Under the pieces are notes generated by a model. It had not been told where the DNA came from. It did not search any database and saw nothing but the letters and a program-made list of their open reading frames with translations. Both the position numbers and the translations under genes were made by a program. Shown here piece after piece: positions 2,835 to 63,165 of a stretch of DNA of 64,000 bases (the stretch's first letter is position 1; every line of letters begins with the position of its first letter). This DNA is from a bacterium (GTDB lineage: Bacteria > CAIWAD01): the NCBI GenBank assembly GCA_030429345.1, contig JAUIFJ010000014.1, forward strand, positions 1 to 64,000, read 5' to 3'.

Positions 2835-2979
2835 TGTCATCCCGCGGCTTGACCGCGGGATCCTTGTCCGCGTCGAAGACTGCAGTAGTCCCAGCTACGT
2901 TTTCCCATCGCGCTACCCCTGAGGACACTTCGGCCTGCGGCCCCCTCGAAGGATCCTGCGGTCAAGCCGCGGGATGACA
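2835..2979. mobile_element. MITE-like inverted-repeat element, copy 1 (145 bp)
   Basis: The element is bounded by TGTCATCCCGCGG and CCGCGGGATGACA, and each end is itself palindromic (CCGCGGcttgaCCGCGG type). The interior carries TTGTCCGCGTCG near the left end and CACTTCGGCCTGCGG near the right end. The 14.7-kb element carries both blocks in the opposite order and strand, so the two are inverted copies of one family. No coding capacity. Confidence 0.8.
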
Positions 2980-3440
2980 GCAATGGGTGGCGGACTCAAG
3001 GCCAAGCCGGGCTGGAACGAGAACTCCCCCACCGCACAGGCAGTGGGGGAGAAAAGGTGGGCGGGTACCCCCCCCAGGGACCCGCCCGGTGGCCACCTTC
3101 CGGTGACCGCATTTGGTTCCGTGCCCAGCGGGGCATTGCCCGGGAAGCACGGTTTCATCGCAAGCCTAGGCTACCCCCTGGTGTTCCGGACTTGAAATCC
3201 CGGGCTGTTGGCTTGCGGGTACAACAAGGCAGTCTTTGGTGGCCGGCGCGGTGGGGTTGGCCACACAAGCCGAGTGATGGTCGTCACAGGCTTCTCTTCG
3301 AGGGTGGCGGGAGCGAAAGAGTCCCTAAGGCTGAAAGCCTGTTTTCATTTGACTTGGATAGTTGCTGCGCTTTCCAGCTTTGCGATGGACACTAAGTGGC
3401 TATTGGGGCGAACAAGGTTAGGATCCTGTAAGAGCCGCGT

Positions 3441-3468
3441 TTGCGATTGTCGATTTTTCCTCTATTAT
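3441..3468 (+). promoter_or_regulatory. Candidate sigma70 promoter for the zinc-finger gene
   Basis: TTGCGA (3441-3446) and TATTAT (3463-3468) are separated by 16 bases, in a locally T-rich stretch. Transcription would start near 3475 and leave a roughly 250-nt GC-rich leader before the gene at 3727. Confidence 0.45.
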
Positions 3469-3726
3469 TGGGCGCCAAATGCGCCGGAAGGGATCCCGGA
3501 TCCCGAAGCACAGGATGGCCGCCCCCAAGGCAGGAAGGGGTGGAACAAGTCTTCAAGCGAATTGGTTGATACCTGACAACGAATCCTGAACTCATCCAGA
3601 AGTTGTAACGCCGTTTTCAACAGCGAGCGAGGCCTCTGAGCCCGGCGCGGGGATCGGATGTGCTTGTAGCAAATGGATAGGCAAGGTGGACCATCGGGCT
3701 CCGATGGTTCGAAGCAAGGAGAGAAC

Positions 3727-3939
3727 ATGAGCCACTCATGCTGTCACTGCGGGAGGGAGATCCGGAAGAAAGACACCAAGTACGAGTCCGTGCAACGCGG
3801 CATGGAAGGTGTCTACCATTGGAACTGCTTCATCAAGGTGACCAAGGAAGCGAATCGTGTCGGCAGCCTGAAGCTGGAAAACAACATCCAGTCCACCGGC
3901 AACCTGCACAACAACACTCCCATGGACATGTTCTCCTAG
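3727..3939 (+). CDS. Small zinc-binding protein (CxxC...HxxC)
   Basis: A 70-residue protein starting MSHSCCHCGREI. The cysteine pair CHC-G in the first ten residues and the later YHWNCF give a CxxC-Hx2C-type set of ligands, like a short LIM or treble-clef knuckle; the second half is polar, with many Asn and Thr, and ends NNTPMDMFS. ATG 3727 is preceded by AAGGAGAG, so the longer in-frame upstream reading is rejected. It is followed by a strong terminator-like hairpin that reaches into hpnC. The role is unknown; nucleic-acid or protein binding are both plausible. Confidence 0.75.
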   Translation: MSHSCCHCGREIRKKDTKYESVQRGMEGVYHWNCFIKVTKEANRVGSLKLENNIQSTGNLHNNTPMDMFS

Positions 3940-3946
3940 GACGCAG

Positions 3947-4891
3947 GTGACTTTCAAGTCCCTTCTTCCCAGGGAATTGCAGAGGCTGGAACCCGGCATC
4001 GGGGATCCAGCCTCTTCTTTTTCCCACTGTCGCGCTTTTCTCGCGCACTACGAGAATTTCACCGTCGGCAGCCGCTTCTTTCCGAAGCGCCTCCGTCCGG
4101 CCCTGGCGGCGATCTACGCCTTTGCCCGATTCAGCGACGATCTGGCGGATTGCCCCTTGCCCTCGGAAACAGGCCTGCCCGCCGAGCAGGGCCTGGCGCT
4201 GCGGCGCGCCGTGCTCGCCCGCTGGAGGGAATTGCTGGAAGGAGAAGGCGAGGAGCGTCATCCGATCCTCCATGCCCTGGCCATATCGCGGCGCGAACAG
4301 GATCTGCCGTTGTCCCTTTTCAGCGACCTGCTGACCGCCTTTGCCCGTGATCTGGAGCAGCAGCGCTGGCAGGATCGCGAAGAACTGCTGTCCTACTGCC
4401 GCTGCAGCGCGGATCCGGTGGGGCGCCTGATGCTGCGCCTCTTCGGTTTTCGCGATCCGGAGCTGGACGCGCTCAGCGACAGCATCTGCACGGCCCTGCA
4501 GCTGGTCAACTTCTGGCAGGATTTCAGCCGCGACCTGCCGGAGGGCCGGCTCTATGTCCCGCTGGCGGATTTGCGCCGCCACGGTCTGCCCAAAGAACCA
4601 GGCGCCTTCCAGCATGCCGGTCCCGCAGCTGCGCCTTTGCTGGAGGAGCTATTCGACTGGGCCGAGGAGCTCTTCGCCCGCGGCGAGTCCTTGCCCGGAC
4701 GGATTAGCGGCCGCCTGGCCTTCGAGGTGCGGCTGTTCATCGGCGGCGGACGGGCCGTCGCGGCCCGAGGCCGCGCGCTGGGAGTGGACATTTTGCGGGT
4801 ACGGCCCCATCTTTCCCGCTTGGGAAAACTGGCCGTCGGGGCAGGGGCCCTGCGAGCCGGCCTTTTCGCGTCCCGCGCGGAAAAAGGCTAG
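3947..4891 (+). CDS. hpnC: Squalene synthase-family protein HpnC
   Basis: HpnC acts in the three-enzyme bacterial route to squalene (HpnD makes presqualene diphosphate, HpnC turns it into hydroxysqualene, HpnE reduces it). The 314-residue frame shows HYENFTVGSRFFPKRLRP at the N-terminus, the first aspartate motif FARFSDDLAD near residue 63, and the second, QLVNFWQDFSRDLPEGR, near residue 188, both characteristic of trans-prenyl synthases of the squalene/phytoene family. The start is uncertain: GTG 3947 lies seven bases after the zinc-finger stop, and TTG 3977 lies just before a terminator hairpin. The conserved HCRAFLAHYENF must be translated, so the hairpin overlaps real coding sequence. hpnD follows after 39 bases. 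Confidence 0.9.
   Translation: MTFKSLLPRELQRLEPGIGDPASSFSHCRAFLAHYENFTVGSRFFPKRLRPALAAIYAFARFSDDLADCPLPSETGLPAEQGLALRRAVLARWRELLEGEGEERHPILHALAISRREQDLPLSLFSDLLTAFARDLEQQRWQDREELLSYCRCSADPVGRLMLRLFGFRDPELDALSDSICTALQLVNFWQDFSRDLPEGRLYVPLADLRRHGLPKEPGAFQHAGPAAAPLLEELFDWAEELFARGESLPGRISGRLAFEVRLFIGGGRAVAARGRALGVDILRVRPHLSRLGKLAVGAGALRAGLFASRAEKG
3981..4022 (+). terminator. Rho-independent terminator or attenuator overlapping the start of hpnC
   Basis: AGAGGCTGGA (3981-3990) pairs perfectly with TCCAGCCTCT (4006-4015), with an inner CCG/CGG stem, followed by TCTTTTT. It would end the zinc-finger transcript, yet its 3' arm and T-tract also encode conserved HpnC residues (SFSHCRAF). Confidence 0.8.
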
Positions 4892-4930
4892 GCAGGGGCA
4901 TTCGGCGGCCGGGCAAACAGGGGTCCGGAA

Positions 4931-5803
4931 GTGAACCAGGCACTGACAGCAGGCGCCGTAAGCCAGGCGCCCGACCTGCGCGAAGCCTATCGCGCCTGCA
5001 CGGCCTTTACCCGCGAACACGCCCGTCATTTCTACTACGCCTTCCTGATCCTCCCGCGCGCCAAGCAGCAGGCGATCCACGCCGTATACGCCTTCTGCCA
5101 GCGGGCCGACATGACCGTCGACCTGGCCGCGGATCCGCAAGAGAAGAGGCGTCGCCTGGCGGAGTTCCGCGCCCAGCTCGACAGCCTCGAGCAGAGCGCC
5201 GATCCGGTCCTGGTCGCCCTGCGCGATACGCTGCAGCGTTTCCCCATCCGCCGCGAGCTGCTCTACCAGCTGCTCGACGGCATGCAGATGGACCTGGAGT
5301 GTCACACCTATCCCGACTTCTCCAGCCTGCGCAATTACTGCTACCATGTCGCCTCCGTCGTCGGCCTGATGAGCATCGAGATCTTCGGCTACCGTGATCC
5401 ACGGGTGCGGGACTTCGCCGAGACCCTCGGCCTGGCGATGCAGCTGACCAACGTGGCCCGCGATGTCCGCGAGGATGCCGAGGAGGGCCGTGTATACCTT
5501 CCCGCCGACGAGCTTCAGCGGCATTCGCTGAGCGCGGAGGAGATCCGCCAGGGCAAGGATTCCAGCGAGTTCCGCCGCTTCATGCGCGCCTTCTGCGAGC
5601 GTTCGGACCGTTTGTACGACGAGGCCCTGGCGCTCCTGCCGGGAAGCGAGCGGCGCAACATGCGCCCGGCGCTGATCATGGCCAATCTCTACCGCAGGAT
5701 CCTGGTGGAGATCCGGCGCCGCGACTACGACGTGCAGGCCGGGAAGGTGCGCTACCCCGCCTGGCGCAAGCTGCTGATCACGGCGCGCACGCTCTTCGCG
5801 TGA
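4931..5803 (+). CDS. hpnD: Presqualene diphosphate synthase HpnD
   Basis: A 290-residue squalene/phytoene synthase family enzyme that condenses two farnesyl diphosphates to presqualene diphosphate. The first metal-binding region is DMTVD within FCQRADMTVDLA (a DxxxD form), and the second is NVARDVREDAEEGRVYLP, a textbook RDxxED signature. RHFYYAFLILPRAKQ at residues 33-48 is the conserved substrate helix. GTG 4931 is the likely start, since the upstream frame belongs to the intergenic gap. The stop overlaps the hpnE start by four bases (GTGA), indicating translational coupling in an hpnC-hpnD-hpnE operon. Confidence 0.93.
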   Translation: MNQALTAGAVSQAPDLREAYRACTAFTREHARHFYYAFLILPRAKQQAIHAVYAFCQRADMTVDLAADPQEKRRRLAEFRAQLDSLEQSADPVLVALRDTLQRFPIRRELLYQLLDGMQMDLECHTYPDFSSLRNYCYHVASVVGLMSIEIFGYRDPRVRDFAETLGLAMQLTNVARDVREDAEEGRVYLPADELQRHSLSAEEIRQGKDSSEFRRFMRAFCERSDRLYDEALALLPGSERRNMRPALIMANLYRRILVEIRRRDYDVQAGKVRYPAWRKLLITARTLFA

Positions 5804-7074
5804 CACGGGCCGATGTGCTCGTCGCCGGGGCCGGGCTTGCCGGCCTGGTCGCGGCCCGCGAACTGGCCCGGGCCGGTCGGCGCGTACTCCTGCTCGAGCG
5901 TCGCGCCCGGCCGGGAGGCAGCGCCTGCAGCCTGCCCTCGCCCATGGGGGAGGTGGACAACAGCTTCCACCTGATGCTGGGGTGCTACAAGGCCTGCCTG
6001 GATCTGTGTGACAAGCTTGGAAGCGCGGGACACCTGCTTCGCGCTCCGGCGGTCTACCCCTTGTCACACATGGGAAAGGCCGGAGGGGAGCTACGGCTGC
6101 ATCCCCTTGCCGGTCCCCTGGCACTTCCCTTCGCCCTGCCGGGCTGGAGCACCTATTCCCCGGCGGAGCGCCTGGGCCTGGCCCGGGACGGTCTGCGCCT
6201 GCTGAGGCATCCGCCACGCGCCGGGCAGACGGTCGGCGACTGGCTGGAGGACAAGGCGCAGGGGAAGTTGACCCGGCGGTTCTTCGACGAGTGGTCGCGG
6301 AGTGTCTTCAATGCGGAGGCGCAAGGCATGGACGCGCCGCTTTTCCTGCGCAGCCTGCGCACCATGTTCGCCTCCGCCCGCGCCGCGCAGCCGGTTCTTT
6401 GCCGGCGCCCCTTGAGAGAGGTCTTCCTGGATCCACTGCTCAGGGACATTCACGAGGCGGGCGGCGAAGTCCGCTTCGGCAGCGCCCTGAAGGCGATTCA
6501 GCGGGAAGGGCGAGGCTTTCGACTGGGAACAACGGAAGGCGATGTTGCCGCCAGCCGGCTTTTGCTTGCCCTGCCGCCGGAAGCGTTGCCGGCCCTGGCC
6601 GACGGCAGGCCCTGGCGCTCGGCGCTGCCGCCATTGCAACCGACGGGCGCGATCGTCACACTGCATGCCCGTCTACGTGGCTGGTCCGGGCAGCGATTCC
6701 TGCAGGGCTTCTTCGGCTCGCCCTGGCAATTCGCCTTTCGCACGCGGATCCAGCCGGTGGTGCAGGAAGTACAGCTCGTCGGCAGCGCCCTGGAGGGCAA
6801 CGACCGGGAGGCATGGCGCCGGAGCGCGCAGGACCTGTTCCGGCAGATGGGCTGGCAAGTGCTGGAGGAGCCCTGGCTGATCGCCCAGCAGCGGCCTTTT
6901 CCCTTGCAGAGCCCGGCCTTCCAGGCCTGCCGCCGGGGAGAAATCGAAGCAGAGCCCGGGCTGTGGCTGGCGGGCGCCTGGTGCGATCCGGACTTGCCGC
7001 TGACCCTGGAGGCGGCGGTCGGTAGCGGACAGCGGGCGGCCCGCAAGATGCTCGCCGATTCCGTCAGAGAATGA
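5800..7074 (+). CDS. hpnE: Hydroxysqualene dehydroxylase HpnE (FAD-dependent)
   Basis: A 424-residue flavoprotein with the N-terminal dinucleotide motif VLVAGAGLAGLVAAREL followed by LLERRARPGGSACS, as in phytoene-desaturase-type amine oxidases. GLWLAGAWCDPDLPLTLEAAV near the end is the C-terminal FAD-binding segment. HpnE removes the hydroxyl of hydroxysqualene to give squalene. The GTG start overlaps the hpnD stop. No squalene-hopene cyclase is in the window, so whether squalene goes to hopanoids, other triterpenes or stays as squalene is open. Confidence 0.93.
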   Translation: MTRADVLVAGAGLAGLVAARELARAGRRVLLLERRARPGGSACSLPSPMGEVDNSFHLMLGCYKACLDLCDKLGSAGHLLRAPAVYPLSHMGKAGGELRLHPLAGPLALPFALPGWSTYSPAERLGLARDGLRLLRHPPRAGQTVGDWLEDKAQGKLTRRFFDEWSRSVFNAEAQGMDAPLFLRSLRTMFASARAAQPVLCRRPLREVFLDPLLRDIHEAGGEVRFGSALKAIQREGRGFRLGTTEGDVAASRLLLALPPEALPALADGRPWRSALPPLQPTGAIVTLHARLRGWSGQRFLQGFFGSPWQFAFRTRIQPVVQEVQLVGSALEGNDREAWRRSAQDLFRQMGWQVLEEPWLIAQQRPFPLQSPAFQACRRGEIEAEPGLWLAGAWCDPDLPLTLEAAVGSGQRAARKMLADSVRE

Positions 7075-7182
7075 AACCGAGGCTCCGGGCCCCGGTCAAA
7101 GGGAAGCCTTGACGGAGACGGGGAGTCGCCGCGAGGCCGGCGGCGGGACACTCCCGGCCGTCGCGGGGAAGTAAAGGAGAAC

Positions 7183-8232
7183 ATGGTGAAGAGCCTGATG
7201 CAAGCCCTTCTGATTCTGGCTCTCTGCGCCAGCGCCTTCGCGGGATCCTTTCTGGGCGTGGTCCTGGATGACGACTCCGTCGAACTGGAGCGCTACGGCG
7301 AAGAGGGCCTCGGGGTTCGCGTTACACGAGTGGTGGACGAGTCCCCCGCCGAGGAGGCGGGCATGGAGCGCGGGGACATCCTGATGCTCTTCGAGGACAA
7401 GCCGGTCAGCGATGACGAGGACCTGGCCTTCTATCTGCGCAAATACGAACCGGGCAGCAAGGTCGAAATCATCGTCCTGCGGGACGGGGATCGCGAAACC
7501 CTGCGCGTGGAGCTGGCGGAGAAGGAAGAGCAGAAGTCCGTGCTCATCTGGCCCGGCAAGCAGAATGAAGAAGGCTTCCTGGGCGTGACGACCCAGGAGA
7601 TCAACGCCAACCTGCTGGAATTCTTCGGCGTCAAGGACGGCTACGGCGTGCTGGTCGACGGCGTGGTGCGCGGTTCGGCGGCGGAGCAGTACGGCATTCG
7701 CGTCGGCGACGTGATCGTCCGCATGCAGGGCAAGAACGTGGACAGCATCGGACGGCTGGGGCGCATTGCCCGCAGCTGCGAACCGGGCGAGACCATCGAG
7801 ATCCTGCTGGTGCGCGACCGCAAGGCCCGCACCCTGGAAGTTCAGATGGGCAGCCGGGATCGAGGCCAAGCGCCGGACGTGGAGTACTTCGGTCCCTGGC
7901 CGGAAGAGGAATCCCTGCATGCTTCCCTGGAAGCCGGCCGCATTGGCGCAGAGTGGGGCATGGACATTGCCGAAGCCACTTTGCAGGGCATGCGTGTCGG
8001 AGTCGAGCCCTGGCTGAGTCCGGAAGAAGCCGCGGAGCTGCGCGAAGACATGCGCGAGGCCGAAGAGGAACTGGAAGAAGCCCGGCGTGAACTGCGCGAA
8101 GAACTGGAAGAAGCCCGGCGCGAATACGACGAGGAGATGCGCGAAGCCAGGGAGGAAGCCCGCGAAGCGGCCCGCGAGGCGCGTCGGGAGCGGGCGCAGG
8201 CTTTCGTCTCCAGCGAAGAAGGCATCCACTAG
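7183..8232 (+). CDS. Secreted tandem-PDZ protein with C-terminal coiled coil
   Basis: A 349-residue protein with a signal peptide (MVKSLMQALLILALCASAFAG). PDZ domain 1 spans about residues 23-112 (GLGVRVTRVVDESPAEEAGMERGDILM), PDZ 2 about 130-222 (FLGVTTQEIN through YGIRVGDVIVRMQGKNV). Residues about 285-345 are an almost uninterrupted run of Glu, Arg and Ala heptads, a long charged coiled coil. No protease domain is present, so it is likely a periplasmic adaptor that binds C-termini or unfolded chains. ATG 7183 follows AAAGGAGAA. A TolC-like gene starts 31 bases downstream, so envelope-export scaffolding is an attractive but unproven link. Confidence 0.85.
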   Translation: MVKSLMQALLILALCASAFAGSFLGVVLDDDSVELERYGEEGLGVRVTRVVDESPAEEAGMERGDILMLFEDKPVSDDEDLAFYLRKYEPGSKVEIIVLRDGDRETLRVELAEKEEQKSVLIWPGKQNEEGFLGVTTQEINANLLEFFGVKDGYGVLVDGVVRGSAAEQYGIRVGDVIVRMQGKNVDSIGRLGRIARSCEPGETIEILLVRDRKARTLEVQMGSRDRGQAPDVEYFGPWPEEESLHASLEAGRIGAEWGMDIAEATLQGMRVGVEPWLSPEEAAELREDMREAEEELEEARRELREELEEARREYDEEMREAREEAREAAREARRERAQAFVSSEEGIH

Positions 8233-57103: not shown

Positions 57104-57151
57104 TTACGCTCTCCGCTCCGGCGGAAGCAGCACAGCATCGATGAGGAAGAA

Positions 57152-57976
57152 ATGACAGAGAAAATCAACGAACTGATCCCCCTGCTGACCGAGTACGGCA
57201 TTCGCGTGCTCGGCGTGATCCTGCTGCTGATCGTGGCCAAGATGGTCGCCGGCTGGACGAAGAACGTCGCCTACAAGTCCTTCAGCAAGGGCAACCTGGA
57301 CGAGACCCTGTCCATGTTCCTGGCGAAAATGCTGGGCAACCTTGTGCTGCTCGTCGCTGTGCTGGCCGTGCTTGGCATCTTCGGCATTCAGACCACCAGC
57401 TTCGCCGCCGTGATCGCCGCTGCCGGTCTTGCCGTCGGTCTGGCCTTCCAGGGGACTCTGGGCAATTTCGCCGCCGGCATCATGCTGCTGGTCTTCCGTC
57501 CCTTCAAGGTCGGCGATGTGGTCAGTGTCTCGGGCACGACGGGCAAGGTCGTCGAGATCGGTCTCTTCGTGACCAGCTTCGATACGCCCGACAATCGCCG
57601 CATCATCATGGGCAACGGCAGCATCGCCGGCAGCACCATCGAGAACATCACCTTCCACGACACGCGCCGTGTCGATGTGGCCGTCGGAGTGGAGTACGGC
57701 GCGGACCTGAAGCAGGTGCGCGAGGTGCTCGAGACACTGGTCAAGGACGTGGCCGAGAGCAAGGGCCTGACGGATCCCGCTCCCGTGGTCTATCACACGG
57801 AGCTGGCGGACAGCTCGGTCAACTACGCCCTGCGCGTCTGGGCCAAAACGCCCGATTACTGGGCCGTGCGCGAAATGCTGACCACCGAAGTCAAGCTGCG
57901 CCTCGACGCCGCCGGCATCGGCATTCCCTTCCCGCAGCTCGACCTGCACGTGGTGGAGAATGTCAGCGCTTCCTAG
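57152..57976 (+). CDS. MscS-family mechanosensitive ion channel
   Basis: A 274-residue channel. Three N-terminal hydrophobic segments end in the pore helix TSFAAVIAAAGLAVGLAFQGTLGNFAAGIM (cited in part), with the Gly/Ala packing of E. coli MscS TM3. FRPFKVGDVVSVSGTTGKVVEIGLF is the beta domain, and PNGS-equivalent IMGNGSIAGSTIENIT the signature loop. It opens on membrane tension to release solutes. ATG 57152 follows GAGGAAGAA. A terminator-like hairpin follows the stop. Confidence 0.95.
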   Translation: MTEKINELIPLLTEYGIRVLGVILLLIVAKMVAGWTKNVAYKSFSKGNLDETLSMFLAKMLGNLVLLVAVLAVLGIFGIQTTSFAAVIAAAGLAVGLAFQGTLGNFAAGIMLLVFRPFKVGDVVSVSGTTGKVVEIGLFVTSFDTPDNRRIIMGNGSIAGSTIENITFHDTRRVDVAVGVEYGADLKQVREVLETLVKDVAESKGLTDPAPVVYHTELADSSVNYALRVWAKTPDYWAVREMLTTEVKLRLDAAGIGIPFPQLDLHVVENVSAS

Positions 57977-58000
57977 CGCCTGGACAGATCGCCTGTATCG

Positions 58001-58036
58001 GGCCGGTATCCGAAAGGGTACCGGCCTTTCTCTTTT
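58001..58036 (+). terminator. Rho-independent terminator after mscS
   Basis: GGCCGGTATCC (58001-58011) pairs with GGGTACCGGCC (58016-58026) with one mismatch-like wobble and loop GAAA, followed by TTTCTCTTTT. Confidence 0.9.
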
Positions 58037-58108
58037 CATACATTCGAGGGCGTCGTTTCCCGGAGGACCGATCACGGCGCTCCGCCGCAAGCCGAATCGA
58101 GGCCGACT

Positions 58109-59158
58109 CTGACACACGCCGAACTGCTCGACACGCTCGCAGAAGTAAAGTTCTTCCCCCGGGGGGCGGAGCTGGAGCCCCTGTCGCCGGGCGGAGGAAG
58201 CCGGCGCTACTACCGCCTGCGGGGATCCGGCGAAGCGCGCCTGCTTTGCCTGCAGCCCAGCCCGCAGCATGCCGGCGGCCCGCTGGACGAGAACCGCAGC
58301 TTCCTCTACATGGCCCGCCTGCTCGAAGAGCGCCTTGACTGTGCTCCGCGCGTCTACGCCCACCGCTTCTTCGGCAAGACCGGCGGCCCCGGAGCCTTCC
58401 TGCTGGAGGACCTGGGGAGTACCGACCTGCGAGCGCTTGTGCGACAGACGCCCCACGAGGACGGCCTGCTCGACCTGGGGCGGCAGGCGGTCGAGCTGCT
58501 GCTGCGCCTGCAGCAGGAACTGGCCCCGCCCGTCTTCGACGCGGCGCGCTGCCATTCCCGTGCCTGGGATGCCGGCCTGCTGCTCGAGGAGGAATCCGGT
58601 CCCTGGCGCGAAGCGCTGCTCAAGGATCGCCTGGCCCTGGACCTGGATCACGAGACCCTGCGCAGGGAGTGCGAGGACCTGGCTCGCCGCAGCGATCGCC
58701 TGCCCCGGAAGCATTTCATCCACCGCGATTTCCAGTCCAGCAATCTCATGCATCGGGACGGGCGATTCTGCCTGATCGACTTCCAGGGCGCAAGGCTCGG
58801 CCCCTTGTGCTACGATCTCTGCAGCCTGGTCTACGATCCCTACACGGCCCTGCCGCCGGAGGTGCGGCTGGGCATGATCGAGGAATACCAGGAACTTGGC
58901 GCCGCCTTCCACGGTCTGAGCCTGGAGGAACTGCAGGCCCAGTGCGCCCTTGTGGGCAGCCAGCGGCTGATGCAGGCCCAGGCGGCCTACCTGCGCATTC
59001 ATGCCGCGCAGGGCGATCCCGCCTGGCTGTCCTACCTGCGCCCGGCCGCGTCGGCCCTGCGCCAGCTCTGCGAGCACGAAGTCATGCAGGACTATCCCGT
59101 GCTGGGCGAGGCGGCCTGGCAGGCCTGGGATCATCTGAACCGCGGGGTGGGCCTGTGA
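58109..59158 (+). CDS. AmgK-like anomeric amino-sugar kinase (APH/COG3178-type phosphotransferase)
   Basis: The protein kinase-like APH fold is clear: the N-terminal ATP-loop LEPLSPGGGSRRYYRLRG, GAFLLEDLGSTDL as hinge, HRDFQSSNLMHRDG as catalytic loop and LIDFQGARLGPLCYDLCSLV as metal-binding motif. The DFQGARxGPxxYDLxSL form is diagnostic of the COG3178 family, which includes AmgK, the kinase that makes MurNAc/GlcNAc 1-phosphate in wall recycling. The start is uncertain: sequence similarity requires translation from at least base 58140, no ATG/GTG/TTG fits, and CTG 58109 is the best candidate; ATG 58310 would cut off the ATP loop. Its stop overlaps murG (GTGA). Confidence 0.82.
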   Translation: MTHAELLDTLAEVKFFPRGAELEPLSPGGGSRRYYRLRGSGEARLLCLQPSPQHAGGPLDENRSFLYMARLLEERLDCAPRVYAHRFFGKTGGPGAFLLEDLGSTDLRALVRQTPHEDGLLDLGRQAVELLLRLQQELAPPVFDAARCHSRAWDAGLLLEEESGPWREALLKDRLALDLDHETLRRECEDLARRSDRLPRKHFIHRDFQSSNLMHRDGRFCLIDFQGARLGPLCYDLCSLVYDPYTALPPEVRLGMIEEYQELGAAFHGLSLEELQAQCALVGSQRLMQAQAAYLRIHAAQGDPAWLSYLRPAASALRQLCEHEVMQDYPVLGEAAWQAWDHLNRGVGL

Positions 59159-61143
59159 AGGTCTGTCTGACAGGCGGCGGCACCGCGGGCCATGTATACC
59201 CCGGCCTGGCCGTGGCGCGCGAGCTGGCGAAGGACCCGGACTGCCGCCTGCTCTACATTGGCACACGCGGCCGCAGCGAAGAGCTGATCCTGGCCCGCGA
59301 GGAGGAGGTCAGCGGCAAGGGCCGGATCCCGATCCGTTTCGCCGCCAGTCGCGGCTTCCCGGGGCTTTCGCCCCTGCCCTTGCTGGCTTTCGCCTGCGTG
59401 CTCGGACTCGGTGTGATCCAGGCGGCGCTGCACCTGCTGCGCTTCCGGCCCGACCTGCTGATCGCCTGCGGCGGCTATGCGAGCGCCCCCGCCGTCTTCG
59501 CCGCCTGGGGCCTGCGGCGCATCGGACTTTTGCGGACGCGCATCCTGCTGCACGAGCAGAATGCGCTGCCCGGCCTGATGAACCGCGTCTCCGCCCGCCT
59601 GGCGGATGTCTGCGCGCTGACCTTCGCCGAGAGCGCGCGCGGCCTGCGCACACGCCGCTGCTGTCACACGGGCTACCCCGTCCGCCCGGACCTGGACCGC
59701 CTGCCGGATGCCGCGGACTCGCGCAAGGCCTTCGGCCTGCCGGCAGAGGGGCCGCTGCTGCTGGTCTTCGGCGGATCCCAGGGCGCGCGCAGTCTCAACC
59801 GCGCGCTCTACGCCCTGCTGCCCGAGCTGCTGAACAGGGGCGTTTCCGTGCTGCACGCCTACGGCAGCGCCTCCGGGAAGGAGTATCACGCGGGCAGGGA
59901 GCACGAGGTGGCGCTGGCGGGGCTTCGGCAGAAGCTGCCGGAGGAGGCGCTGGCGATGTATCACGCCGAGCCCTTCTTTTTCGATATGCCCGCGGCCTAT
60001 GCCGCCGCCGACCTCTGCCTGGCCCGCGCCGGCGCGGGGACGATCTTCGAGCTGCTGAGCGCGGGCAAGCCGGCCGTGCTGGTGCCCAAGATGGGCCTTC
60101 CCGGCGACCACCAGGTCTGCAACGCGCGCATCGTCGAGGAGCACGGCGCGGCTGCGATCGTTCTCGAGGAGCCCTTGCCCTCCGCGGAAGGCCTGCGGGC
60201 CAGCCTGTCCCCGGATCGCCTGCGCGAGGCCCTGCTGCCCCTGCTCGAATCCGCGGGTCGCCGACAGGGACTGCAGGAAGAGGCCGACAGCCTGAGGCGA
60301 GCCGGCGCCCTGCAGCGCCTGGTGTCCCTGTCACACGATCTGGCGGCCCGGCGGGAACCGAATTGCGATGAGCCGCGTGTTGCAATGGAGAATGGTCCCA
60401 CCCTGGAGCACATGACCTGCCAGGCCCTGCTGGCCCGGGTGGAGAAGGGCGAGACCTTCAGCGGGGCCGACCGGCGCTACCTGGCCTACCGCTGCGGAGC
60501 GGCTTTGGTTGCCGGGCACTGGCTGACGCGGAACTGCGGGGTCAAGCTGGCCGGCGCCCTGGGCGATCCCGCCTTCGCGCCGCTGGTCTGCAGCCTCCTG
60601 CGCCAGGCGCCCAGGCCGGGACGGCTGCGCCGGCTCTTCGGCGAGAAGGAGGGGCCGCAGGGCTTCGTGAGACGGAACGCGGCGCAGAGCCTCAAGAGAA
60701 TGGGAGCGCGGGACGCTGAAAGCCTGGCCCTGCTGCGCGAGCTGCTGCGTGATTCCTACTGGGAGGCGCGTGTCGCCGCCCTGCAGGCCCTGACGGAATT
60801 GTTGCCAGCAGGCACGGAGCTGAAGGAAGAGGAGCTGCGCCTCCTGCGCCGCGAGGCCAACTTCGAGGAGCGTGTCGCCCTGCTCGAGTATTACGGGAAG
60901 CATGGAGACCCCGCGCGCTGGCGCGAGTCGCTGCTGCCGGGACTGGAAGATGTCAACAGCCGCGTGCGCGAGGCGGCGATCAGCGTGCTGGCGGGCATGA
61001 TCGATTCCGGCCGCCTGGCGGTCTGCGAGGAGATCCGCGCCCTGCAGCGGACGATCATGCTGACCTCGACCCGCTTCCACCCGGTCTTTCCGCTCAAGCA
61101 GCGCATGCGTGAACTGTCCAGCCGTCTACGGGAGGATGCCTGA
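59155..61143 (+). CDS. murG: MurG (lipid II synthase) fused to a C-terminal HEAT-repeat-like domain
   Basis: One uninterrupted 662-residue frame. Residues 1 to about 395 are MurG, which adds GlcNAc to lipid I: GGGTAGHVYPGLA, ACGGYASAPA, HEQNALPGLMNR, VFGGSQGARSLN and the UDP-GlcNAc site RAGAGTIFELLSAGKPAVLVP with GDHQVCNA. Residues about 410-662 are an all-helical region with HEAT/armadillo-like units (VRRNAAQSLKRMGARDAESL, WEARVAALQALTELL, VNSRVREAAISVLAGMI). Standard MurG ends near residue 360. GTG 59155 overlaps the AmgK-like stop; the stop overlaps mraY (TGATG). An internal ATG (residue 411) could give a separate HEAT protein. Confidence 0.9.
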   Translation: MKVCLTGGGTAGHVYPGLAVARELAKDPDCRLLYIGTRGRSEELILAREEEVSGKGRIPIRFAASRGFPGLSPLPLLAFACVLGLGVIQAALHLLRFRPDLLIACGGYASAPAVFAAWGLRRIGLLRTRILLHEQNALPGLMNRVSARLADVCALTFAESARGLRTRRCCHTGYPVRPDLDRLPDAADSRKAFGLPAEGPLLLVFGGSQGARSLNRALYALLPELLNRGVSVLHAYGSASGKEYHAGREHEVALAGLRQKLPEEALAMYHAEPFFFDMPAAYAAADLCLARAGAGTIFELLSAGKPAVLVPKMGLPGDHQVCNARIVEEHGAAAIVLEEPLPSAEGLRASLSPDRLREALLPLLESAGRRQGLQEEADSLRRAGALQRLVSLSHDLAARREPNCDEPRVAMENGPTLEHMTCQALLARVEKGETFSGADRRYLAYRCGAALVAGHWLTRNCGVKLAGALGDPAFAPLVCSLLRQAPRPGRLRRLFGEKEGPQGFVRRNAAQSLKRMGARDAESLALLRELLRDSYWEARVAALQALTELLPAGTELKEEELRLLRREANFEERVALLEYYGKHGDPARWRESLLPGLEDVNSRVREAAISVLAGMIDSGRLAVCEEIRALQRTIMLTSTRFHPVFPLKQRMRELSSRLREDA

Positions 61144-62249
61144 TGCTGAAACTGCTCGCCGGCTGGCTGCGGCAGGAACTGGAAGGCCCGGGCTGGCTGC
61201 GCCTTTTCGACTACCTGTCCGTGCGCACCATGATGGCCGCGCTGACCACCTTCCTGCTCAGCCTGCTCCTGGGACGACTTGTGATCCGCTGGCTGCACCG
61301 GAAGGGCTTTCGTGATACGGTGGATGACTACGGCGTGATCGACGTGGGCAACAAGCGCGGCACCCCGACCATGGGCGGCCTGATCATCCTGGGCGCTTCC
61401 GTCATCGGCTACCTGCTCTGGTTCCAGGCGGACAGCCCCTACGCCTGGGCCGGCCTCTCGGCCCTGCTCTGGTTCGGCCTGCTGGGCTTCATCGACGATT
61501 TCCGCAAGGTGCGCGGAGGCAGCGGGCAGGCCGGCCTCAGCCAGGGGACCAAGCTCCTTTTGCAGACTCTTTTCGCCACGGCCTTCGCCGTCTGGGTGCT
61601 GAGCGCCGCCTCGCCGCTTCCCGAGCCGGTACAGACCCAGTTGTTCCTGCCCTTCCTCAAGGAGCCGGTGGCGGACCTGGGCTGGTTCTACGGGGTCTTC
61701 ATCGTCTTCGTGATCCTTGCCGTCTCCAACAGCGTCAACTTCGCCGACGGCATGGATGGCCTGGCGACGGTGCCGGCGGCGGTCGTGCTCATGGTCTACG
61801 CGGTGCTGGCCTATGTGATCGGCAACGAGATCTACAGCGGCTATCTGAACTTCGACTATGTGGCCGGCACCGGCGAGTTCGCCGTGCTCTGCGGAGCGGT
61901 GATCGGCGCCTGCCTGGGCTTTCTGTGGTACAATTTCTTCCCGGCCCAGGTCTTCATGGGCGACACGGGCAGCATGGCGCTCGGCGGGCTGCTCGCCGTG
62001 CTGGCGGTGATGCTGAAGCAGGAATTCCTCTTCGTGATCGCCGGCGGGGTCTTCGTGGTCGAGGGCGCCAGCGTGCTGATCCAGGAGAAGATCGGCATCC
62101 GGCTGCTGGGCCGCAGGATCTTCTTCCGCGCGCCGATCCATCACAGTTTCCAGCACCGCGGAGTGGCGGAAACAAAGGTCGTGATCCGTTTCTGGATCGT
62201 GGCCATGCTGCTGGGCTTCATCGCGCTCCTGTCGCTCAAGTTCCGCTAG
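61143..62249 (+). CDS. mraY: Phospho-N-acetylmuramoyl-pentapeptide transferase MraY
   Basis: A 368-residue integral membrane enzyme that joins UDP-MurNAc-pentapeptide to undecaprenyl phosphate, giving lipid I. About ten hydrophobic segments are present. Signatures: KRGTPTMGGLIIL, the DDFRK aspartates, NSVNFADGMDGLA, VFMGDTGSMALGG and APIHHSFQHRGVAETKVVIR (20 residues cited). Start ATG 61143 overlaps the MurG-HEAT stop. Gene order murG before mraY, without the usual murF, murD or ftsW between, is a rearranged dcw cluster. Confidence 0.96.
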   Translation: MLKLLAGWLRQELEGPGWLRLFDYLSVRTMMAALTTFLLSLLLGRLVIRWLHRKGFRDTVDDYGVIDVGNKRGTPTMGGLIILGASVIGYLLWFQADSPYAWAGLSALLWFGLLGFIDDFRKVRGGSGQAGLSQGTKLLLQTLFATAFAVWVLSAASPLPEPVQTQLFLPFLKEPVADLGWFYGVFIVFVILAVSNSVNFADGMDGLATVPAAVVLMVYAVLAYVIGNEIYSGYLNFDYVAGTGEFAVLCGAVIGACLGFLWYNFFPAQVFMGDTGSMALGGLLAVLAVMLKQEFLFVIAGGVFVVEGASVLIQEKIGIRLLGRRIFFRAPIHHSFQHRGVAETKVVIRFWIVAMLLGFIALLSLKFR

Positions 62250-62253
62250 CCGC

Positions 62254-63165
62254 ATGAAGGGACCAGAGACGAAGGCCCCCTGCAGCGGCATCCTTCTCTG
62301 CGCCGGGGAAGGGCGACGCCTGCGGCCGCTGACCCTGGTGCGGCCCAAGCCCCTGGTGCCGCTGCACGGCATTCCCCTGGCCGAGTTCGGCCTGCGCTTC
62401 CTGCTGGAAGCCGGGTGCGACCCGATCGCGATCAACGGCTGGCACCTGGCGGAGCAGATTGAGGCCTGGGTGGAGGAGCTGCGCCGGCGCTACCCCGAGC
62501 GCCGCTTTCTCTTCTTCCGGGAGGAGCGGCTGCTCGGCACGGGGGGAAGCCTGCAACAGATGCTGCCGCGGCTGCCTGCCGGGCCGGTGCTGGTACAGAA
62601 CGGCGATGTGCTCCACGACGCGGATCCGGCCCTGTTGTTGAAGGATCTGCCGCAGGAGGAGATCCGCCTGCTGTCGACGTCTGGCCCACCTGTGCTGGAA
62701 GGACGGGAGGGGCAGGTCCTCAGCCTTCGGGATCCGGCGCGTTCGAACCGGGGCTTCGCCGGCGTGCACGCCATCGGGGCCGAGGCGCGCAAGGCCTTGC
62801 TGGACGATGGTCCGGCGGATGTGGTCGAGCGCTGGCAGGCCTTCATCGCGCTGAATGGTGCTCCCCGGCTGGGCGCCACCCTGCACGATGGGTTCTGGAA
62901 GGACATCGGCCGGCTGGCCGAGTACCTGCCCTTTCATTGGGAGCTGGCGCGGGATCCGGCGTATCTTGCCCTGTGCCGGCGGCTGGATCTGCATGCCGAT
63001 GTGGACCCCGAGAGGAAGGTCTCTCCGGCGGCGGCCCGCCTGGGCGAGGGCAGCCGGGAAGCGGTGCTCTGGCATCACGAGGGCTGGCCGGGCCGGGTTC
63101 GCCGAGCGATCCTTTGCCGTCCAGGCGGCGGAAACGGAAATCTGGAAGGAGAAATCCTGCTTTGA
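62254..63165 (+). CDS. MurU-like sugar-1-phosphate nucleotidyltransferase
   Basis: A 303-residue Rossmann nucleotidyltransferase. LCAGEGRRLRPLTLVRPKPL is the G-x-G-x-R-x2-P-x-T nucleotide site with the following PKPL, LVQNGDVLHDADP gives the metal aspartate, and NRGFAGVHAIG and GFWKDIGRLAEYL the sugar pocket. With an AmgK-like kinase in the same operon it is best read as MurU, which makes UDP-MurNAc from MurNAc-1-phosphate; a generic NDP-sugar pyrophosphorylase is the alternative. ATG 62254 is four bases after mraY. It is about 80 residues longer than compact MurU forms. Confidence 0.8.
   Translation: MKGPETKAPCSGILLCAGEGRRLRPLTLVRPKPLVPLHGIPLAEFGLRFLLEAGCDPIAINGWHLAEQIEAWVEELRRRYPERRFLFFREERLLGTGGSLQQMLPRLPAGPVLVQNGDVLHDADPALLLKDLPQEEIRLLSTSGPPVLEGREGQVLSLRDPARSNRGFAGVHAIGAEARKALLDDGPADVVERWQAFIALNGAPRLGATLHDGFWKDIGRLAEYLPFHWELARDPAYLALCRRLDLHADVDPERKVSPAAARLGEGSREAVLWHHEGWPGRVRRAILCRPGGGNGNLEGEILL

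Follow-up and report, generated by a model that had tools for sequence, protein, structure and literature searches.

The locus described here raises the question of why a MurG protein should carry a long tail of HEAT repeats, and which partner such a tail might serve. It lies in a window of 64,000 nucleotides from an uncultured bacterium, the whole stretch of DNA that was analysed. Positions 59155-61143 (+) form one open frame of 662 codons, which encodes a complete GT28 MurG followed by a HEAT solenoid (Table 1). The sequence-only reading had described an in-frame fusion in which MurG extends to about residue 395 and is followed by about 250 residues of repeats; these boundaries were correct, and the fusion was borne out by the single frame, by Pfam, by an AlphaFold2 model and by homologues in sister genomes. 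Its GTG start shares bases with the stop of the gene before it (GTGA), and its final TGA overlaps the ATG of mraY (TGATG). Because of these overlaps at both junctions, the kinase, MurG-HEAT and mraY genes look translationally coupled.

Table 1. Positions of features in the window and of the MurG-MurJ-HEAT polypeptides at other loci
Feature	Position	Strand	Basis or remark
Phosphotransferase (APH fold, weakly AmgK-like), upstream neighbour; start uncertain	58019..59158	+	PF01636, E 1.4e-21
MurG catalytic domain (GT28, residues 1-397)	59155..60345	+	PF03033/PF04101, Foldseek, kept residues
Linker (residues 398-420)	60346..60414	+	Low model confidence; varies among relatives
HEAT-repeat domain (residues 421-635), about five repeats	60415..61059	+	Pfam, model helices, family alignment
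Family motif GF(I/V)RRN (residues 503-508)	60661..60678	+	At least 90% conserved across lineages
Family motif D-x-Y-W-E (residues 533-537)	60751..60765	+	At least 90% conserved
C-terminal signature TSxxFxPxFPLK (residues 637-648)	61063..61098	+	Fused and most free-standing members
mraY of the HEAT-linked clade; start shares one base with the MurG-HEAT stop	61143..62249	+	TIGR00445; sole PF00953 gene; tree
Sugar nucleotidyltransferase (weakly MurU-like), downstream of mraY	62254..63165	+	PF00483/PF12804
MurG-MurJ-HEAT polypeptide	L097:7034-10981	-	Three genera, one family
MurG-MurJ-HEAT polypeptide	L117:about 3933-7868	-	Three genera, one family
MurG-MurJ-HEAT polypeptide	L118:about 2868-6800	+	Three genera, one family

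The source genome is a draft of 92 contigs, which could speak for an assembly artefact or a missed frameshift. We give this explanation practically no credence: homologous fusions were found in the three sister genomes, in at least 20 surveyed genomes, and in the closed genomes G437 and G438, which belong to another phylum, and the closed-genome homologues already refute it. That the frame is open by chance, or that a frameshift near position 60360 was missed, was ruled out by the full-length fused homologues (47-50% identity) present in 3/3 sister genomes. The suggested short form starting at an internal ATG (residue 411, nt 60385) found no support. The methionine is absent from the two sister sequences aligned at this position, and no ribosome-binding site is evident in the local sequence. 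On the opposite strand of the window, positions 57104-59266 (-) hold an open frame of 720 codons that runs antisense to the genes for the MscS-like channel and the kinase; the high G+C content very likely accounts for it.

The MurG part is complete, as had been claimed from its motifs. Pfam placed Glyco_transf_28 at residues 3-151 and Glyco_tran_28_C at residues 202-349, both above cut-off, and the GT28 scores (78.9 bits for PF03033 and 89.2 bits for PF04101) are likewise over cut-off. The residues aligned to E. coli T15, H18, E125, N127, S191, R260, E268, Q288 and N291, which we take to be the catalytic and UDP-GlcNAc residues, are all kept. An AlphaFold2 model built from 14 sequences (pLDDT 86.9, pTM 0.84) shows a confident MurG fold and helices 422-634 that form a repeat domain, joined by a linker with a pLDDT of about 64-66 that falls below 50 at residues 410-413; the best Foldseek matches of the model were the solved MurG structures 1f0k, 1nlm and 3s2u. 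The TIGR01133 equivalog cut-off was not reached (204.2 bits vs 250.25), and other fused members scored 187-234 bits. As judged from its sequence, MurG-HEAT would belong to a divergent subfamily with the function of MurG and not be a TIGR01133 equivalog. The genome, which is 98% complete, holds a single PF04101 gene and a single PF00953 gene, both at this locus. Since the only PF04101 gene of the genome has kept its active-site residues, MurG-HEAT is very probably the working MurG of the cell despite the shortfall in TIGR01133 score.

The tail was recognized by Pfam as HEAT (PF02985, 35.9 bits vs 23.5) and as HEAT_2 (PF13646, 36.5 bits vs 27.7), and when searched alone it matched HEAT_2 with an E value of 2.3e-11. 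When 386 genomes were searched with a profile of the tail, strong matches (E below 1e-13) were obtained in 29 genomes of 17 families, and generic HEAT proteins stood clearly apart at E values of about 5e-11 and weaker. The members share the motifs GF(I/V)RRN, DxYWEVR, NFE and the C-terminal TSxxFxPxFPLK, the last of which has low model confidence in AlphaFold2. Scanning named genome contigs yielded further members, under the labels Delongbacteria, Acidobacteria/Thermoanaerobaculia, CSSED10-310, UBP11 and Planctomycetota. In the literature searched, mainly open papers, no earlier description was found that combines HEAT repeats with MurG or MraY. The tail represents a distinct, widespread and apparently undescribed family. 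In 20 of the 29 strong-match genomes the HEAT unit is joined in frame to MurG; far from being unique, the fusion defines a MurG subfamily spread over many families and several phyla. Open frames of 770-940 amino acids at three plain MurGs (G027, G028 and G052) matched MurG in MurG residues only and were not counted as fusions.

The most constant feature of the family is its position. In 27/29 strong-match genomes the HEAT unit lies directly upstream of mraY. Besides the 20 fusions, murG, HEAT and mraY are three adjacent genes in two genomes (G058 and G332), and in five others (G046, G323, G191, G222 and G080) HEAT is followed by mraY with murG elsewhere; of the remaining two, G004 is cut by a contig end and begins inside HEAT, and G252 had no frame check. 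In G046 mraY is missing from the dcw cluster, which runs murF-murD, and is found elsewhere behind a free-standing HEAT (L154 = G046:C2:132000-146000; L039). In one family of a further phylum (f268) nearly all members are fused, and most other families of that phylum have no fusion. Genomes with plain MurG have the usual order mraY-murD-ftsW-murG-murC, and no match to the HEAT family was found near plain mraY or murG in about 29 loci. The MraY of the window scored 306.4 bits with TIGR00445 (cut-off 192.05) and 24.8 bits with the MraY signature MraY_sig1 (PF10555, cut-off 20.1), and has clade-typical residues, e.g. R20, F297, G318 and R329 in window numbering. Gene linkage alone can reflect co-regulation instead of contact.

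The phylogenies of the two enzymes were compared with the distribution of HEAT. In the MurG tree 31 HEAT-fused or HEAT-adjacent sequences were split from 26 plain ones with 100/100 support, and in the MraY tree 39 sequences from HEAT genomes were split from 24 plain ones, also with 100/100 support. The 39 include G431, whose contig ends just before mraY so that the HEAT unit is unseen, and whose sister genomes are fused. Five long-branch rows, the very divergent PF00953-like L209, L211 and L212 as well as L145 and L083, were excluded from the final MraY tree, as their inclusion lowered the support for the split to 81/84; the split itself was recovered also in their presence. In the five lineages with free-standing HEAT the MurGs fall in the plain clade and the MraYs in the HEAT clade. 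The unlinked MraYs of G084 (G084:C9 / L095) and G354 (G354:C99 / L102), two genomes in which MurG is fused to HEAT, also fall in the HEAT clade, and in the same phyla genomes that lack HEAT have plain MraYs. Because the clade match with MraY persists alongside an ordinary MurG and alongside an unlinked mraY, HEAT follows MraY, not MurG. Pairwise-distance correlations (HEAT-MraY 0.58, HEAT-MurG 0.51, MraY-MurG 0.24), a crude measure in which the pairs are not independent, are only suggestive of ties of HEAT to both enzymes.

Taking into account that HEAT is nearly always just before mraY and always occurs with one branch of MraY, it probably connects consecutive steps of wall building physically. 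HEAT repeats as a class have a wide variety of binding partners. The explanation that we consider somewhat better than even is that HEAT is a cytoplasmic adaptor which holds MurG, sometimes together with MurJ, at MraY for the handing over of lipid I and lipid II. The HEAT domain would bind the cytoplasmic side of one MraY subfamily; in most lineages its covalent joining to MurG would keep MurG at the point of lipid I release by MraY; in one family the lipid II flippase MurJ, part of the same polypeptide, would be carried along as well; and where HEAT is a separate subunit, MurG would dock to it non-covalently. What we infer from the genomic evidence is that HEAT binds MraY, that it tethers MurG and that substrate transfer may gain from this. 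In E. coli, MurG and MraY can be cross-linked in one complex (PMC2170320), and native mass spectrometry showed that lipids pass in order between MraY, MurG and MurJ (PMC9046198); this order of reactions gives a HEAT tether an obvious use.

That HEAT tracks MraY over MurG, including five lineages with an ordinary, unlinked MurG, would also be expected if HEAT were a regulatory or stabilising subunit of MraY, such as an activity switch, an assembly factor or a ligand sensor, and the fusion to MurG reflected co-regulation only, with no tethering for transfer. A dedicated protein activator has a parallel in SpoVK of B. subtilis, reported to be an activator of MurG (PMC10659427). We regard a purely regulatory role as the less probable explanation, with perhaps one chance in a handful, as it leaves the covalent joining to MurG, and in one family to both MurG and MurJ, unexplained.

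The connection with MurJ is direct in family f233, where three genomes of three genera (G318, G388 and G389) encode one polypeptide of about 1,320 residues, MurG-MurJ-HEAT, followed by mraY. The order within this chain is MurG, about 150 residues without Pfam match, MurJ and HEAT; in the G318 protein, MurJ occupies residues 536-1033 and scored 304.9 bits with TIGR01695 (cut-off 235.55). In G285, G404 and G152 murG-HEAT is directly preceded by murJ. MurJ is believed to have both of its termini in the cytoplasm, which fits with a cytoplasmic HEAT domain. The wider proposal, that one MraY clade obligately works with a HEAT adaptor joining MraY, MurG and MurJ in a lipid II assembly line, in some bacteria through fusion of MurG, MurJ and HEAT in a single chain, with direct passage of lipid I and lipid II from synthesis to flipping, is less likely than not, and we put it forward only tentatively.

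It had been suggested that the tail is a docking platform for the divisome, MreB or recycling partners, or a sensor of a ligand. The platform itself is likely, and the partner to which the genomic evidence points is MraY (in some lineages MurJ), not the divisome, MreB or a sensed ligand; this assignment is based on the position of HEAT before mraY in 27/29 genomes and on its tracking of the MraY clade with ordinary MurG. Cytoskeletal or scaffold proteins are frequent partners of HEAT platforms, and docking of MurG or MraY onto another machine (the MreB/RodZ elongation complex, the divisome or amino-sugar recycling enzymes) would agree with the AmgK/MurU-like genes that flank the locus in the family of the window and with the co-precipitation of MurG, MraY and MreB in E. 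coli (PMC2170320). We think it rather unlikely, however, as the neighbours annotated at the loci checked included no mre, rod or fts gene, recycling-type genes turned up in no class other than that of the window, and the constant neighbour is mraY. The murG and mraY genes of the window lie outside the dcw cluster, between the kinase and the nucleotidyltransferase genes, with murE and murD on contig C44. The nucleotidyltransferase is kept in 4/4 relatives of the class (G001-G004) and the kinase in the three of the family (G001-G003). The two could be an amino-sugar kinase/uridylyltransferase recycling pair, with scores far below the curated NCBIfam cut-offs for AmgK and MurU (47.1 of 550 and 76.7 of 250 bits). 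In G080 (CSSED10-310) a beta-N-acetylglucosaminidase gene (PF07555; L101:7053-8297, -) is found directly upstream of the free-standing HEAT-mraY pair.

A match between clades could also arise without any interaction, by transfer of the operon, if a HEAT gene with no role in lipid II synthesis had been trapped in an ancient mraY-murG operon and was later spread or inherited with it. Such neutral hitchhiking seems improbable: the HEAT motifs are kept across deep divergence, the linkage persists in free-standing as well as fused forms, and HEAT stays fused to MurG even where mraY has moved away.

MraY, MurG and MurJ carry out near-universal steps of bacterial wall synthesis, of which the MurG step is the last cytoplasmic one, and MraY is a target of antibiotics. 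There is continuing debate over how lipid I reaches MurG from MraY and how lipid II reaches MurJ from MurG. With these enzymes joined by a conserved covalent link, channelling can be tested directly, and the fusion offers a natural construct for solving the complex. The adaptor explanation would also suggest a likely function for a HEAT family whose members otherwise carry no more than a generic HEAT-repeat annotation. The chemistry of these steps is known; new is a conserved and apparently undescribed linking domain.

Compared with canonical MurG (E. coli, 1f0k/1nlm; TIGR01133), the MurG of the window has the same two-domain GT28 fold and the same catalytic residues and is likewise the sole MurG of its genome, but it belongs to a separate clade (100/100), carries a 250-residue HEAT extension and is encoded outside the dcw cluster. 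Similarly, the MraY of the window passes TIGR00445 and MraY_sig1 like canonical MraY encoded in the dcw cluster, but is in a separate clade (100/100), behind a HEAT unit and outside dcw. By profile, the tail is of the same short-HEAT-repeat class as the PBS-lyase-like HEAT proteins (CpcE, E. coli YibA and the artificial alphaRep); these have no glycosyltransferase, whereas the family linked to MurG and MraY has its own motifs GFxRRN, DxYWEVR and TSxxFxPxFPLK. The scaffold for cytoplasmic Mur enzymes described for Bordetella MurG is likewise a multi-enzyme assembly around MurG, but it was proposed from MurG oligomers and Mur ligases, and not as a HEAT adaptor tied to MraY (PMC6420597). The closest parallel is the MurG-MraY-MreB complex of E. 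coli, which likewise associates the successive enzymes of lipid I and lipid II synthesis (PMC2170320); the association is physical there and one that we infer here, and whereas the E. coli complex is non-covalent, here a dedicated HEAT domain is joined with MurG, and sometimes with MurJ, in one chain.
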